The position numbers and the translations under genes are program-made. A DNA stretch of 64,000 bases from Pseudomonas oryzihabitans (lineage in GTDB: Bacteria > Pseudomonadota > Gammaproteobacteria > Pseudomonadales > Pseudomonadaceae). The notes under the pieces were generated by a model that worked only from the letters and a program-made list of their open reading frames with translations, did no database searches and was not told where the DNA came from. This document shows positions 48,565 through 53,722 of the stretch, one piece after another; the first letter of the stretch is position 1, and every line of letters begins with the position of its first letter. The stretch spans positions 4,536,501-4,600,500 of the forward strand of contig NZ_CP017024.1 in NCBI RefSeq assembly GCF_014522265.1, read 5' to 3'.

Positions 48565-50598
48565 ATGCCTGCGTTGAAACCTCTCACCCTCGCCATCGGC
48601 CTGCTGCTCGGCAGCCAGGCCTTCGCCGCCCCGGTTTTCGACGTCACCGAACTGGGTGACCCGGCCACCGCCTGCAGTGACCTCGACATCTTCGTCAATG
48701 AAAAATGGGTCGCGGCCAATCCGATCCCGCCGGACAAGTCACGCTGGGGTTCCTTCATGGCCCTGGGGGAAAAATCGCTCAACGACCAGCACGCCATCCT
48801 GCAGCGCGCCGCCCGCACCGCGGATCGCGCGGCAGCGGGCTCGGTGGAGCAGAAGATCGGCTGGCTGTATCGCTCGGGCATGGACGAGGCCGCCATCGAG
48901 CGCGCCGGCTATCGGCCGATCCAGGCGCAACTGGCGACCATCGACGGGTTGCGCACCACGGCTGATGTCGTGAAGTACCTCCAACAGAGCTTCGCCCGTG
49001 GCGACATGCAGGTGTTCTCCTTCGGCTCCGGCGCCGACTATCAGAACGCCAAGCAGCAGATCGCCTACGCCTACCAGGGCGGCCTGGGCCTGCCCACGCC
49101 CGACTATTACACCGAAGCCGACTACGCCAAGCTGCGCCAGGCCTATCTCGGCCACATCGCCCGGCTGCTGGTGCTGACCGGAGTGCCCAAGGCCAAGGCG
49201 GCCGCCCAGGCCGAACTGGTGCTGGCCTTCGAAAGTCGCCTGGCGCGGGCTTCCGTCAAGCCGGTGGAGCTGCGCAATCCGGAGAACCAGTATCACTACC
49301 TGAGCTTCGCCGAAGCCAACAAGGTCACGCCGCATTTCGACTGGCAGGCCTTCTTCGCCAGCCAGGGCGTCACCGGCCAGCAGGGCTTTTCGCTGTCCCA
49401 GCCGGGCTTCTTCGCCGAATTCGACCGGATGCTGGCCGAGACTCCCGTCGAGCAGTGGCAGGCCTATCTGCGTGCCCATGTGATCGACGACGCTGCGCCG
49501 CTGCTGTCCAGGCCTTTCCAGCAGGAAAGCTTCGAATTCAACCAGAAGACCCTGAGTGGCCAGCAGCAGCAGAGCGAACGCTGGAAACGGGTGCTGCGCG
49601 CGGTCAACGGCGCCATGGGCGAAGGTCTCGGCCAGCTCTATGTGCAGGAGCATTTCTCGCCCCAGGCCAAGGCGCGGGCCCAGGAGCTGGTGGACAACGT
49701 GATGCTGGCGCTCAAGGCGCGCATCGAGCAGCTCGACTGGATGAGTCCGGAGACCAAGCAGAAGGCGCTGGCCAAGTGGGACAGCTTCCTGCCCAAGATC
49801 GGCTATCCCGAGCGCTGGCGCGACTGGAGCGGCCTGACGCTCAAGCCGCAGGGCTTCTATGCCAACCTGGAAGCCGCCTCGCGCTTCAACTATCGCCATG
49901 ACCTGGACAAGATCGGCAAGCCCACCGACCGCCAGGAATGGGGCATGTACCCGCAGACGGTCAATGCCTACTACAGCCCCACCGACAACACCATCAACTT
50001 CCCCGCCGCCATCCTGCAGCCGCCGTTCTTCTATCCGGACGGCGACGATGCCATCAACTACGGCGGTATCGGCGCAGTGATCGGTCACGAGGCCAGCCAT
50101 GGTTTCGACGACCAGGGCAGCAAGTTCGACGGCGCCGGCAACCAGGTGGACTGGTGGACCCCGGCCGATCGCAAGGCCTTCGAAGCCCGCACCGGCAAAC
50201 TGGTGGAGCAGTTCGACAACTACCAGCCGCTGCCGGATCATCCGGAGCTGCACGTCAACGGCAAGCTCACCCTGGGCGAGAACATCGGCGATCTCGGCGG
50301 CATCAATGCGGCCTACGACGCCCTGCAACTGGCCCTGGCGAAAAAGCCGGAGGAAGCCAACCGGAAGATCGATGGCTATACCCAGCAGCAGCGCTTCTTC
50401 CTCAACTGGGCGCGGGTCTGGCGCGGTTCGATCCGTGAAGAGCAGGCGCGCCTGTTCCTCAACACCGACCCCCATGCGCCCATGAGATTCCGCGCGCTTG
50501 GCGCGCCGTCCAACATGCCGTCCTTCGCCAAGGCGTTCAGCTGCAAGGCGGGTGATGCCATGGTCCGGCCGGACGAGAAACGCGTGGAAATCTGGTGA
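48565..50598 (+). CDS. M13-family (neprilysin-like) zinc metallopeptidase
   Basis: Exported oligopeptidase, 677 residues, with a signal peptide (LTLAIGLLLGSQAFA). The M13 zinc site is complete: GHEASH (HExxH) near residue 509, and GENIGDLGG near 572, which gives the third ligand Glu and Asp. NAYYSPTDNTINFPA is the substrate-binding NAYY motif, and the C-terminus ends in a Trp as in the family. The ATG at 48565 has GGAGA upstream and starts the signal peptide. It is likely periplasmic. It stands alone after the nuo operon. Confidence 0.93.
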   Translation: MPALKPLTLAIGLLLGSQAFAAPVFDVTELGDPATACSDLDIFVNEKWVAANPIPPDKSRWGSFMALGEKSLNDQHAILQRAARTADRAAAGSVEQKIGWLYRSGMDEAAIERAGYRPIQAQLATIDGLRTTADVVKYLQQSFARGDMQVFSFGSGADYQNAKQQIAYAYQGGLGLPTPDYYTEADYAKLRQAYLGHIARLLVLTGVPKAKAAAQAELVLAFESRLARASVKPVELRNPENQYHYLSFAEANKVTPHFDWQAFFASQGVTGQQGFSLSQPGFFAEFDRMLAETPVEQWQAYLRAHVIDDAAPLLSRPFQQESFEFNQKTLSGQQQQSERWKRVLRAVNGAMGEGLGQLYVQEHFSPQAKARAQELVDNVMLALKARIEQLDWMSPETKQKALAKWDSFLPKIGYPERWRDWSGLTLKPQGFYANLEAASRFNYRHDLDKIGKPTDRQEWGMYPQTVNAYYSPTDNTINFPAAILQPPFFYPDGDDAINYGGIGAVIGHEASHGFDDQGSKFDGAGNQVDWWTPADRKAFEARTGKLVEQFDNYQPLPDHPELHVNGKLTLGENIGDLGGINAAYDALQLALAKKPEEANRKIDGYTQQQRFFLNWARVWRGSIREEQARLFLNTDPHAPMRFRALGAPSNMPSFAKAFSCKAGDAMVRPDEKRVEIW

Positions 50599-50671
50599 GG
50601 GATCAGGGGCGTCCGGTGGTCGGGTATCGCTTTTGCATCGCCGGTCTCCTCTCCTCTCTGGCGCCCCCTAC

Positions 50672-52342
50672 ATGCCTCTAGAACTCGCCTTCGCCGAAGC
50701 CACTGCGACCGGTCCGCGCAAGGAAAACCAGGACGCCTTGCGCAGTGTCCAGCCCAGCGCGGCGCTGGCGGCGACCAAGGGGCATCTGTTCGCCCTCGCC
50801 GATGGCGTCAGCGGCTGTCCCGACGGTGGCCTGGCCGCCCGCGCCACCCTCCAGGCCCTGGCCCAGGATTACTATTCCACGCCGGAGACCTGGCCGGTGG
50901 CCCAGGCCCTGGAGCGGTTGCTGCTGGCGCAGAATCGCTGGCTGCAGGCTGCGGGCAATGGCCAGCCACTGCTGACCACCCTCACCGCCCTGGTGATCCG
51001 CGGGCGGCGCTATACCCTGGCCCACGTCGGCGACTGCCGCGCCTACCGCTGGCACGGCGACCGGCTGAGCTGCCTCACCGTCGACCACGTCTGGCAGCAG
51101 GCCGGCATGCAGCATGTGCTGACCCGCGCCCTGGGCCTGGAGAACCACCTGGTGGTGGACTTTCGCGAAGGCGAGCTGGAAGCCGGCGAAACCCTGCTCC
51201 TGGTGAGCGACGGCGTCTGGGCCGCGCTGGGTGAAGACAGCATGAGGCGCATCCTGGTCGATGGCGTCGCGGAGCTGGAGGCCACTGCCCAGGCCCTGGT
51301 GGCCGGCGCCCTGCATGCCGGTGGCCAGGACAACGCCAGCGCCCTGCTGGTACGGGTCGACCGCCTCCCTGACGTGTCCCTGGCCGATACCCTGGCCAGC
51401 GCCGATACCTGGCCGCCGTTGCCGGCGCTCAAGCCCGGCCAGCACTTCGAAGGCTGGACGGTGGTGGAGCGTCTGGCCGAGTCGCGGCAATCGCTGCTCT
51501 ACCGGGTCAAGGACGAGGGCGGCCGTCCCTGGCTGCTCAAGACCCTGCCCGCGGCGCTGCAATTCGACACCCTGGCCGGTCATGCCCTGCTCATGGAGGA
51601 GTGGTTCCTGCGCCGGGTCGCCGGGCGCGCCTTCGTCGAGGTCCATCCGTTGCCGCGGCGGGCGCATCTCTACTTCGTGCAACGGGAATATGCCGGTCGT
51701 ACCCTGGCGCAGCAGCTACGCAGCGAAGGCCCCCTGGCCCTGGCCGACTGGCTGGACGTCGCCTCCCGCCTGCTGCGGGCCCTCGGCCAGCTGCACAGGC
51801 GCAACATCCTTCACCGCGACATCAAGCCGGACAACCTGCATCGCGGCCAGGATGGCGAATTGCGTCTGCTGGACTTCGGCCTGGCCTATTGTCCGCAGCT
51901 GTCCGAGGATCTGCATGACAGCCCGGGCACTCCCAGCTACCGGGCGCCGGAGTCCCTCGAGGGCGCCGAGCCCAGTCCGGCCCAGGATCTCTATGCGACC
52001 GGGGTGACCCTCTATCAGCTGCTCACCGGTGGCTATCCCTACGGCGAGGTCGAGCCCTTCCAGCGGCCACGTTTCGGCGCGCCGGCCAGTGCCCTGCGCC
52101 GGCGTCCGGATGTACCGGCCTGGCTCGACGACTGGCTGCAGCGCGCCGTGGCGGTCGACCCCGCCGATCGCTTCGAAACCGCCGAGGAAGCCCTGCTGCT
52201 GCTGGAGCAGGGCGAGCGTCAACCCCTGGCCCGCCCGCTGCCGCTGCTGCAGCGCGATCCCCTGCGCACCTGGCAGATCGTGGCCGCCTGTTCGCTACTG
52301 CTGAATCTGCTGCTGGTGCTGCTCTGGCTCTATCGGCACTGA
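50672..52342 (+). CDS. PP2C phosphatase fused to Ser/Thr protein kinase, membrane-anchored
   Basis: Signalling protein of 556 residues. The N-terminal PP2C domain (residues 1-240) has its metal-binding acids in KENQDA, ALADGVSG, HVGDCRAYR, VSDGVW and GGQDNAS. The kinase domain (about 270-520) has the ATP-lysine in WLLKTLP, catalytic HRDIKPDN, DFGLAY and an APESLE. A C-terminal helix (IVAACSLLLNLLLVLLWLY) anchors it. The same fusion lies beside nitrate assimilation genes in P. aeruginosa (PA1782), suggesting a role in nitrogen control that has not been shown. Here the nirBD/nasC genes that should follow are absent and cobA comes next. Confidence 0.92.
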   Translation: MPLELAFAEATATGPRKENQDALRSVQPSAALAATKGHLFALADGVSGCPDGGLAARATLQALAQDYYSTPETWPVAQALERLLLAQNRWLQAAGNGQPLLTTLTALVIRGRRYTLAHVGDCRAYRWHGDRLSCLTVDHVWQQAGMQHVLTRALGLENHLVVDFREGELEAGETLLLVSDGVWAALGEDSMRRILVDGVAELEATAQALVAGALHAGGQDNASALLVRVDRLPDVSLADTLASADTWPPLPALKPGQHFEGWTVVERLAESRQSLLYRVKDEGGRPWLLKTLPAALQFDTLAGHALLMEEWFLRRVAGRAFVEVHPLPRRAHLYFVQREYAGRTLAQQLRSEGPLALADWLDVASRLLRALGQLHRRNILHRDIKPDNLHRGQDGELRLLDFGLAYCPQLSEDLHDSPGTPSYRAPESLEGAEPSPAQDLYATGVTLYQLLTGGYPYGEVEPFQRPRFGAPASALRRRPDVPAWLDDWLQRAVAVDPADRFETAEEALLLLEQGERQPLARPLPLLQRDPLRTWQIVAACSLLLNLLLVLLWLYRH

Positions 52343-52386
52343 AGACCTCGCGGCGTCATGCCCTCCTTTGCAGCACGCTGCGCCCA

Positions 52387-52411
52387 AAAGGGGCAGCCCG
52401 CTGCCCCCTTT
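52387..52411 (+). terminator. terminator after the kinase gene
   Basis: AAAGGGGCAG-CCCG-CTGCCCC(C)TTT, a ten-base stem with one bulged C, 44 bases after the kinase stop. The A/T ends make it a probable short intrinsic terminator, isolating the promoter that follows. Confidence 0.55.
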
Positions 52412-52447
52412 CCAGCGGTAAACCGCCGGAAAGAACGGATCTGCGCC

Positions 52448-52464
52448 TTGGCACGAAGCCTGCA
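52448..52464 (+). promoter_or_regulatory. sigma-54 promoter upstream of cobA
   Basis: TTGGCACG...CTGCA matches the -24/-12 consensus (TGGCACG-N4-TTGCA) with one change, and the invariant GG (52450-52451) and GC (52462-52463) are exactly 10 bases apart. Transcription would start near 52475, just before the two stem-loops. Such promoters need an activator, probably NtrC; no clear NtrC site was found in the 100 bases upstream. Confidence 0.8.
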
Positions 52465-52481
52465 AATCCTCAGACAACACA

Positions 52482-52527
52482 GGTCTTTCTTCAACGGCGA
52501 GGAAAGACCCTCCGGACAAAGGCGTCC
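52482..52527 (+). ncRNA. ANTAR-type antitermination leader (NasT/NasR-responsive)
   Basis: Two adjacent stem-loops. P1: 11-base stem GGTCTTTCTTC/GAGGAAAGACC (52482-52492 with 52499-52509) with hexaloop AACGGC. P2: GGAC/GTCC (52514-52517 with 52524-52527) with hexaloop AAAGGC. Both loops have A at position 1 and G at position 4, the hallmark recognised by ANTAR proteins. P2 shares bases with the 5' arm of the terminator, so the two cannot form together. In Pseudomonas and Azotobacter NasT acts on such leaders when nitrate is present. This is read by eye; no covariance model was run. Confidence 0.78.
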
Positions 52528-52558
52528 CAGCTGCTTGCAGCGGGACGCCTTTTTTTTT
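52518..52558 (+). terminator. leader terminator before cobA
   Basis: GGCGTCCC...GGGACGCC (52521-52528 with 52542-52549), with an inner CTGC-TT-GCAG stem and AAA/TTT extension, followed by nine T's at 52550-52558. It is a very strong intrinsic terminator 38 bases before the cobA ATG, so without antitermination little cobA mRNA would be made. Confidence 0.9.
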
Positions 52559-52596
52559 GCGTTACAGTCGCCACCCTGGAAACGAGAGGTCACTAC

Positions 52597-53343
52597 ATGA
52601 GTGGGAAAGTCTGGTTGATCGGTGCCGGCCCCGGCGATCCCGAGCTGCTGACCCTCAAGGCGGTGCGCGCCCTAGGCGAAGCCGAGGTGGTGATGATCGA
52701 TGACCTGGTCAATCCGGCGGTGCTCGAACACTGCCCGAACGCCCGGGTGATCCGCGTCGGCAAGCGCGGCGGCTGCCGCTCCACGCCCCAGGCCTTCATC
52801 CACCGGCTGATGCTGCGCTATGCCCGCCAGGGCCGTTGCGTGGCCCGGCTCAAGGGCGGCGATCCCTGCATCTTCGGTCGTGCCGGCGAGGAGGCCGAAT
52901 GGCTGGCCGCCCGTGGCGTCGCCAGCGAGATCGTCAACGGCATCACCGCCGGCCTGGCCGGTGCCACCGCCTGCGGCATCTCCCTCACCCTGAGGGGCGT
53001 GGCCCGCGGCGTAACCCTGGTCACCGCCCACACCCAGGACGACACGGCGCCCAACTGGGCCGCCCTGGCCGCCACTGGTACCACGCTGGTGGTCTACATG
53101 GGCGTCGCGCGCCTGGCCGAGATCCAGCAGGGCCTGCTGGATGGCGGTCTCACGCTGACCACACCGGTGGCCATGATCGAGAACGCCTCCCTGCCCAGCC
53201 AGCGCGAATGCCGCTCGACCCTGCAGGAGCTGCAGGTGGACGCCACGCTCTTCCAACTGCGCAGTCCGGCGATCCTGGTGATCGGCGAGGTGGTGGGTCA
53301 GGCGGCGCTGCAACAGGCGCTGGGCTTCGCGGCTCAGGCCTGA
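52597..53343 (+). CDS. cobA: uroporphyrinogen-III C-methyltransferase
   Basis: Methylates uroporphyrinogen III twice with SAM to precorrin-2, on the way to siroheme and cobalamin. The 248-residue protein has the SUMT motifs WLIGAGPGDPELLTLKA at the N-terminus, RLKGGDPCIFGRAGEE near residue 86, and GITAGLAGATACGI. In pseudomonads this copy is the last gene of the nitrate assimilation operon, supplying siroheme for nitrite reductase. Here it is directly behind a sigma-54 promoter and an ANTAR leader, with no nir/nas genes. No operon partner follows. Confidence 0.94.
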   Translation: MSGKVWLIGAGPGDPELLTLKAVRALGEAEVVMIDDLVNPAVLEHCPNARVIRVGKRGGCRSTPQAFIHRLMLRYARQGRCVARLKGGDPCIFGRAGEEAEWLAARGVASEIVNGITAGLAGATACGISLTLRGVARGVTLVTAHTQDDTAPNWAALAATGTTLVVYMGVARLAEIQQGLLDGGLTLTTPVAMIENASLPSQRECRSTLQELQVDATLFQLRSPAILVIGEVVGQAALQQALGFAAQA

Positions 53344-53722
53344 ACCGCGCGTCCCTTCGCCGCGGTCGACCCAGGACGTCAACCGCGGCCTTACCCGCCC
53401 AGACATACGCCGGTAGCGGTCTCGTCACCAGGACGTTCGCCAGGCAAGCCCTCTTCTGCGCATCTGGCCATCGTCCAGTCTCCTCTCGCGCAAGGTTGCG
53501 CGCAGCAGCCCCCTGCCTTGTCCGCCCCCTGGGCACAGACCCAACGTCCGTTCTGCCATCAAGCTGACCGCTTATATCTTGACGTCATAGACCCGTCCAT
53601 TTTTTATAAGGTCAGTTATCAGAATTTATTTCGGGACGGAGAAAAAAGTGATGTAATTCACACTGTATAGGGGATGGCTTTTTGCTATCTACCCAACCAG
53701 TCGCCCGTTTCGCTCGATCAAG
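53344..53722. other. intergenic region before the exopolysaccharide locus
   Basis: About 380 bases. The first 230 are GC-rich and show nothing clear. The last 150 (from about 53570) are markedly AT-rich, with TTGACG at 53579-53584 and TTTATA/TATAAG at 53603-53610 as a possible promoter for the locus downstream. Confidence 0.5.
53579..53610 (+). promoter_or_regulatory. putative promoter of the exopolysaccharide locus
   Basis: TTGACG as -35 and TTTATA (18-base spacer) or TATAAG as -10 within the only AT-rich stretch near the locus. It would give a leader of over 100 bases before the first small frame. Confidence 0.4.

Follow-up and report, generated by a model that had tools for sequence, protein, structure and literature searches.

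The cobA locus and its upstream leader

The window, by which we mean the whole 64-kb stretch of Pseudomonas oryzihabitans DNA analyzed here (the genome is one contig of 5,047,357 bases), carries a cobA gene 97% identical to that of P. oryzihabitans NBRC 102199, whose product scores above the cut-offs of both NF004790 (331.2 bits) and TIGR01469 (290.7 bits). Upstream of it on the same strand lies a gene for a PP2C phosphatase fused to a Ser/Thr kinase, homologs of which also stand beside the nas/cobA loci of relatives. The features of the region are as follows, in window positions:

50498–52342, plus strand: PP2C phosphatase–Ser/Thr kinase fusion gene, the upstream neighbor (Pfam PP2C_2 and Pkinase above cut-off; start codon unsettled)
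52390–52407, no strand assigned: GC-rich inverted repeat 3′ of the kinase gene, possibly the end of the upstream unit (from sequence alone)
52449–52464, plus strand: −24/−12 sigma-54-type promoter TGGCACGAAGCCTGCA (TGGCA and TGC columns invariant in 25/25 aligned leaders)
52474–52560, plus strand: leader RNA, its putative 5′ end about 12 nt past the −12 GC
52482–52509, plus strand: hairpin P1, 11 bp, loop AACGGC with A1 and G4 (sequence, covariation, conservation)
52514–52527, plus strand: hairpin P2, 4 bp, loop AAAGGC with A1 and G4, antiterminator (invariant in 25/25 leaders)
52521–52558, plus strand: intrinsic terminator overlapping P2, with nine T (sequence, fold, covariation)
52583–52589, plus strand: likely ribosome-binding site CGAGAGG (sequence)
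52597–53343, plus strand: cobA, uroporphyrinogen-III C-methyltransferase, 248 aa (NF004790 and TIGR01469 above cut-off)

The elements that the initial annotation had read in this interval are indeed there, namely a sigma-54 GG-N10-GC spacing at 52450–52463 (GG at 52450–52451, GC at 52462–52463), two hexaloop hairpins that each present A1 and G4, and, directly downstream of the leader, cobA, as both the sequence and the protein family matches indicate. P1 pairs 52482–52492 with 52499–52509 (11 pairs) around its loop at 52493–52498, P2 pairs GGAC at 52514–52517 with GTCC at 52524–52527 around 52518–52523, and the terminator arms, 52521–52534 and 52537–52549 with a bulged A at 52529, lead into nine T at 52550–52558. 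The proposed exclusivity of the second hairpin and the terminator is likewise upheld by folding: since the short RNA (52474–52532) folds as P1 plus P2 (−21.5 kcal/mol, z −3.57) and the full RNA (52474–52560) as P1 plus terminator (−42.5 kcal/mol, z −6.19), with the terminator alone at −26 kcal/mol (z −5.34), we regard the two as alternative structures.

Comparison with Rfam, which the initial annotation had recommended, returns two NasT-type leader models, P11 (RF00625; 52437–52549, 60.2 bits, E 1.1e-11, model positions 1–139 end to end) and narK (RF03032; 52450–52528, 31.4 bits), yet both matches stay below their gathering scores of 70 and 43.2, respectively. Because of the former shortfall, we term the leader a divergent relative of P11 rather than a filed member of the family. 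It combines GGACAAAGGCGUCC as hairpin 2 with a hexaloop hairpin 1 and an overlapping terminator, the combination by which we recognize P11/NalA leaders, and it shares the AACGGC hexaloop and a GACAAAG segment with the narK leader; unlike the P11 model, it has no counterpart of 16 model positions between P1 and P2. R1, a model built from alignment A2 of 25 leaders, matches it at 115.7 bits, the training set having included the window leader itself. Furthermore, a scan whose rule requires two A..G.. hexaloops and an overlapping terminator returns one match in the window, both strands included, namely this leader, against 2 matches in 100 order-1 Markov resamplings; the scan is not blind, the rule having been relaxed after a first, stricter version (no match in the window and a single one in 20 resamplings) overlooked the bulged terminator. 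The same bulged terminator is also overlooked by a simple terminator scan of 52330–53680, which returned 0 terminators. Another riboswitch, such as a cobalamin riboswitch, was rejected on the six Rfam matches between 51000 and 54000 (E up to 10), which belong to other families: P11, narK, a plasmid ctRNA model placed on the terminator, and three eukaryotic families at chance level.

Conservation and covariation of the hairpins

Covariation was scored over 25 leaders in alignment A2, P1 of three luteola-group rows having been misplaced in an earlier alignment, A1. Nine of the 11 P1 pairs have changed on both sides, with 57 two-sided-change cells against 19.9 in shuffles, and 91.2% of P1 cells are paired against 41–51% when the partners are slid, a comparison in which derivation of the structure from the window sequence favors the unslid version. 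P2 is the same in every leader and is therefore uninformative by covariation; the A1 and G4 columns of both hexaloops are equally invariant (25/25). For the terminator, 19 cells show two-sided change against 5.6 in shuffles, with a number of pair types that is not above the shuffles.

Among ten oryzihabitans-group genomes, mean pairwise identity reaches 0.97 in P1, 1.00 in P2, 0.98 in the terminator (52519–52549) and 0.92 in the −24/−12 element. Lower values hold for the upstream DNA (0.52), the start region (0.62), the four-base linker (0.78), the stretch from the leader to the ribosome-binding site (0.68), 52583–52596 (0.81) and the 137 fourfold sites of cobA (0.80).

NasT, other leaders in the genome and the supply of siroheme

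The look for nasT and nasS elsewhere in the genome that the initial annotation had suggested leads to a NasS-like protein with an ANTAR protein next to it. The single ANTAR protein detected with PF03861, at ~4.738 Mb, carries a receiver domain and is NasT, 100% identical over 189 residues to the NasT of another sampled genome (G008); adjoining it is an NMT1-like protein, a NasS candidate by position whose best NCBIfam match lies below the cut-off. Both rpoN and ntrC are encoded as well.

As judged from sequence features, the genome holds four separate leader-bearing units, cobA, nasA, nasC and nirBD, of which a whole-genome R1 search gave three and a search of its own stretch gave the nasC leader. 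The narK leaders in front of nasA, which encodes a NarK-family transporter, and of nasC score 55.2 and 60.0 bits, above the cut-off of 43.2, in contrast to the narK match of the window leader. The nirBD and nasC units lie at ~2.93 Mb, away from the window cobA:

L061:5303–9334, minus strand: nasC, 1343 aa, in which a NasC-like nitrate reductase of the molybdopterin type continues into a CysJ-like flavodoxin/FAD/NAD reductase; divergent from nirBD
L061:9689–9874: nirB leader (R1 38.2 bits; dual hexaloop also detected by the hexaloop scan)

The nirB–nirD unit combines a sigma-54-like promoter with a dual-hexaloop leader, divergent from nasC, and the nasC and nasA leaders have GG-N10-GC, the full TGGCA being absent. 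Leaders of the same type precede nirB and nasC in two further genomes (G002 and G009). Since NirB of this genome and its counterpart at the luteola locus share 36% identity, we consider the former another type at another place. About 1.8 kb past the 3′ end of nasC lies a selenocysteine tRNA gene (L061:3424–3515; L066:2226–2317).

Two proteins of the genome exceed the TIGR01469 cut-off: the window CobA and CysG, the latter complete (464 aa, N-terminal domain intact; NF007922 671 bits against a cut-off of 400) and with no R1 leader match within 3.7 kb around its gene. The initial annotation had held that siroheme and precorrin-2 synthesis itself would be switched by nitrate; the additional presence of a complete CysG with no leader match around its gene makes the claim too strong, so that nitrate would boost siroheme synthesis rather than switch all of it. 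Weaker TIGR01469 matches at 2.19–2.20 Mb suggest cobalamin genes, and because CysG and CobA are the only two proteins above the cut-off of this SUMT family, nitrate gating could possibly extend to vitamin B12.

Promoter and activator

The best NtrC-like site at the window cobA promoter scores 10/12, within the range of 8 to 10 found for eight oryzihabitans-group cobA promoters (seven relatives 8–9), and three luteola-group promoters reach 10 to 11; of 500 random pieces 220 nt long, 12 have a best score of at least 10, and the sequence makes no convincing case for the NtrC site that a promoter of this kind ought to require. An extract of PMC3973561 describes P. protegens NalA as having kept its sigma-54 boxes, palindromic NtrC motifs being absent. 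In P. putida KT2440 under nitrogen limitation, data excerpted from PMC7801951 list cobA as up 7.37-fold and nasA 14.64-fold in the wild type, and still 7.69-fold and 12.43-fold in the rpoN mutant. That cobA induction survives the loss of rpoN in P. putida means that sigma-54 dependence is not to be assumed across the genus Pseudomonas; the KT2440 cobA, for its part, seems to follow nasA and a kinase gene, a promoter arrangement different from that of the window.

The leader and cobA among relatives

A P11 search of 57 relatives, run with stricter filters that may lose weak matches, detects the leader in all 13 sampled genomes of the oryzihabitans–luteola genus. In 10 of these cobA directly follows it, and the remaining three (P. 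duriflava, P. asuensis and P. luteola; G001, G004, G012) carry P11 leaders at two places, in front of a nirB-type gene and in front of cobA. Leader and NasT occur together in 25 of 36 sampled Pseudomonadaceae genomes, where P11 matches at E 2.1e-8 or better and the best NasT match is 72–100% identical, and both are missing from the other 11, in which P11 gives no match or one with E > 0.1 and a NasT is not detected at E 1e-20. Within a sample of the order, cobA is found at E 1e-60 in 4 of 115 genomes, all four of them Pseudomonadaceae.

We surveyed cobA loci with R1 in the best 80 of 568 relatives, which are the nearest cobA genes rather than a census. A NasT-type leader lies upstream on the same strand in 79 of the 80, counted by position; the eightieth locus (L126) begins inside nasC and cannot be judged. 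The leader is <200 nt from cobA in nine loci (L071–L077, L089, L110), all of the oryzihabitans–luteola group, so that, among the best 80 of 568 relatives, just one genus shows cobA with its own leader. Elsewhere it stands 1.2–1.4 kb upstream (6 loci; 6/6 checked have an N-terminal NirB-like gene between), 4.0–4.4 kb upstream (19 loci; the 8 checked by tblastn all have N-terminal NirB and then NasC) or >5.5 kb upstream (40 loci, in 7 of which the leader match is truncated at the end of the locus; the 4 checked all have full NirB and then NasC). The last five (L113, L116, L144, L145, L148) give no more than weaker matches of the narK-like kind (25–33 bits) before nasA-kinase-cobA, and the hexaloop scan detects a leader in four of them. 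These loci resemble the window in that cobA is apart from nirBD with a NasT-type, narK-like leader upstream, but there the leader precedes nasA, ~3 kb upstream, and cobA has none of its own.

The origin of the oryzihabitans cobA leader may lie in a deletion between two leaders or in the retention of a second leader of its own, and both readings stand on the sequences: its identity is 0.51–0.60 to luteola-group cobA leaders and 0.54–0.62 to luteola-group nirB leaders (six leaders compared), and a tree of the 25 leaders, with weak inner support, does not join the two cobA leader groups.

Several neighboring arrangements are worth recording. At the NBRC 102199 locus, the kinase gene and the cobA leader are separated by genes for a likely nitrate ABC transporter (L071:2598–5759; substrate-binding protein, permease and ATPase, as read from translations), which have a NasT-type leader to themselves; these genes are absent at the window site, where the kinase gene adjoins. 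At L078, L079, L092, L096, L102, L105 and L063:12085–13569, a P11 leader is followed by a gene like the N-terminal half of NirB, which aligns over 334–443 of 813 residues, does not include the siroheme half and precedes cobA or nasC; all eight further loci checked have N-terminal-only NirB before nasC, and the protein is perhaps an electron donor for NasC. Finally, weak P11 matches in two genomes from other families of the order (L034 in G042, E 0.035; L035 in G040, E 0.055) carry a TGGCA-type element and a T-run, in genomes whose NasT is 37–38% identical, and are likely distant leaders.

A model for NasT-dependent control of cobA

We take 52449–52558 to be, very likely, a leader of the NalA/P11 type that places cobA under NasT-dependent antitermination. 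When nitrogen is short, transcription would be started at about 52475 by sigma-54 RNA polymerase, together with an activator that is probably NtrC. When nitrate and nitrite are lacking, NasS would hold NasT, P2 would melt into the terminator, and transcription would stop at the nine T to release an RNA of ~85 nt. In the presence of nitrate or nitrite, freed NasT would grip P1 and P2 via their A1/G4 hexaloops and thereby block the terminator, allowing cobA to be transcribed. CobA could then add precorrin-2 for the siroheme of assimilatory nitrite reductase beyond the supply from CysG, and cofactor supply probably rises with nitrate in this way.

Most components of this scheme have precedents in the literature, as far as extracts of the respective papers go: the NasS–NasT mechanism (PMC3795266), dual-hexaloop antitermination with A1 and G4 in the loops (PMC3369931), the joint action of NasT, NalA and sigma-54 with NtrC at nirBD (PMC12830290), NasT in other organisms (PMC6759348, PMC7261876) and P. 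putida cobA as a putatively NasT-regulated gene (PMC7801951). The NasR-nasF and EutV leaders likewise rely on ANTAR-protein antitermination at hexaloop hairpins, according to the same kind of excerpts (PMC3369931, PMC3795266), but with other regulator proteins and other target genes.

As Romeo reportedly described in 2012, NalA is the leader of the nirBD-PA1779-cobA operon of Pseudomonas aeruginosa. Rfam lists NalA as P11. The window shares with that system the sigma-54 promoter, the hairpins, the overlapping terminator, the NasT antiterminator and a cobA in the operon, yet no nitrite or nitrate reductase gene stands between leader and cobA. Regulation of cobA by NasT as part of longer units has been published or proposed before, and the switch itself is of a known kind; what is unusual is that cobA has a stand-alone leader in all 13 sampled genomes of the genus and that nasA, nasC and nirBD each have one as well in the genome of the window. 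A NasT leader on cobA alone is undescribed in the titles and abstract beginnings of the open-access papers listed, which is weak evidence of absence.

The leader might instead be a relic, left with no useful regulation after the loss of nirBD-nasC between it and cobA, and the gene order of relatives, in which nirB-type genes, nasC and cobA come after a P11 leader, would accommodate such a history, nirB and nasC lying elsewhere in this genome. A relic should hardly keep its hairpins and terminator at 0.97–1.00 identity in ten genomes when cobA fourfold sites fall to 0.80 and the upstream sequence to 0.52; moreover, all 13 sampled genomes of the genus retain the cobA-adjacent leader, including the three that also have a nirB leader. 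We accordingly rejected the relic on its conservation in ten genomes and consider it very improbable. Slightly less probable still is that the terminated RNA acts in trans as a small RNA with cobA downstream by accident, even though Rfam types P11 as "Gene" with the description of a Pseudomonas sRNA and NalA is termed a small RNA in the excerpted PMC3973561: what is conserved is the dual-hexaloop antiterminator with its overlapping terminator, and the start region and linker vary. Also against the small-RNA reading, a sigma-70-type promoter of cobA's own, a candidate likewise dropped, was undetected in 52330–53680, a weak negative with 0.1 expected in shuffles.

The least probable alternative, with hardly any chance in our estimate, is that another ANTAR protein reads the leader or that the leader answers to a signal other than nitrate. 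The genus Pseudomonas does have other ANTAR proteins, such as AmiR (extract of PMC3369931), and c-di-GMP is reported to lower NasT binding in P. putida (extract of PMC12830290); against another reader, PF03861 yields one ANTAR protein in the whole genome, next to the NasS candidate. The leader on cobA alone is a real, conserved and probably working NasT antitermination switch.

More tentatively, and as a possibility rather than an expectation, the cobA of the oryzihabitans–luteola group could be an autonomous member of the NasT regulon, which in the genome of the window would have been split into units of one step each (a transporter, a nitrate reductase, a nitrite reductase and a cofactor enzyme), all with a switch of their own, such that nitrate would gate precorrin-2 for siroheme and possibly for vitamin B12, and repeated leaders may mark sites of nirBD-nasC loss. 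An RNA switch on a cofactor gene alone makes cofactor supply versus enzyme demand testable with no enzyme genes in the transcript, and the locus would exemplify how an antitermination regulon disperses through leader copies. The arrangement also suggests reading Rfam P11 as a cis-acting leader in place of its present type "Gene".
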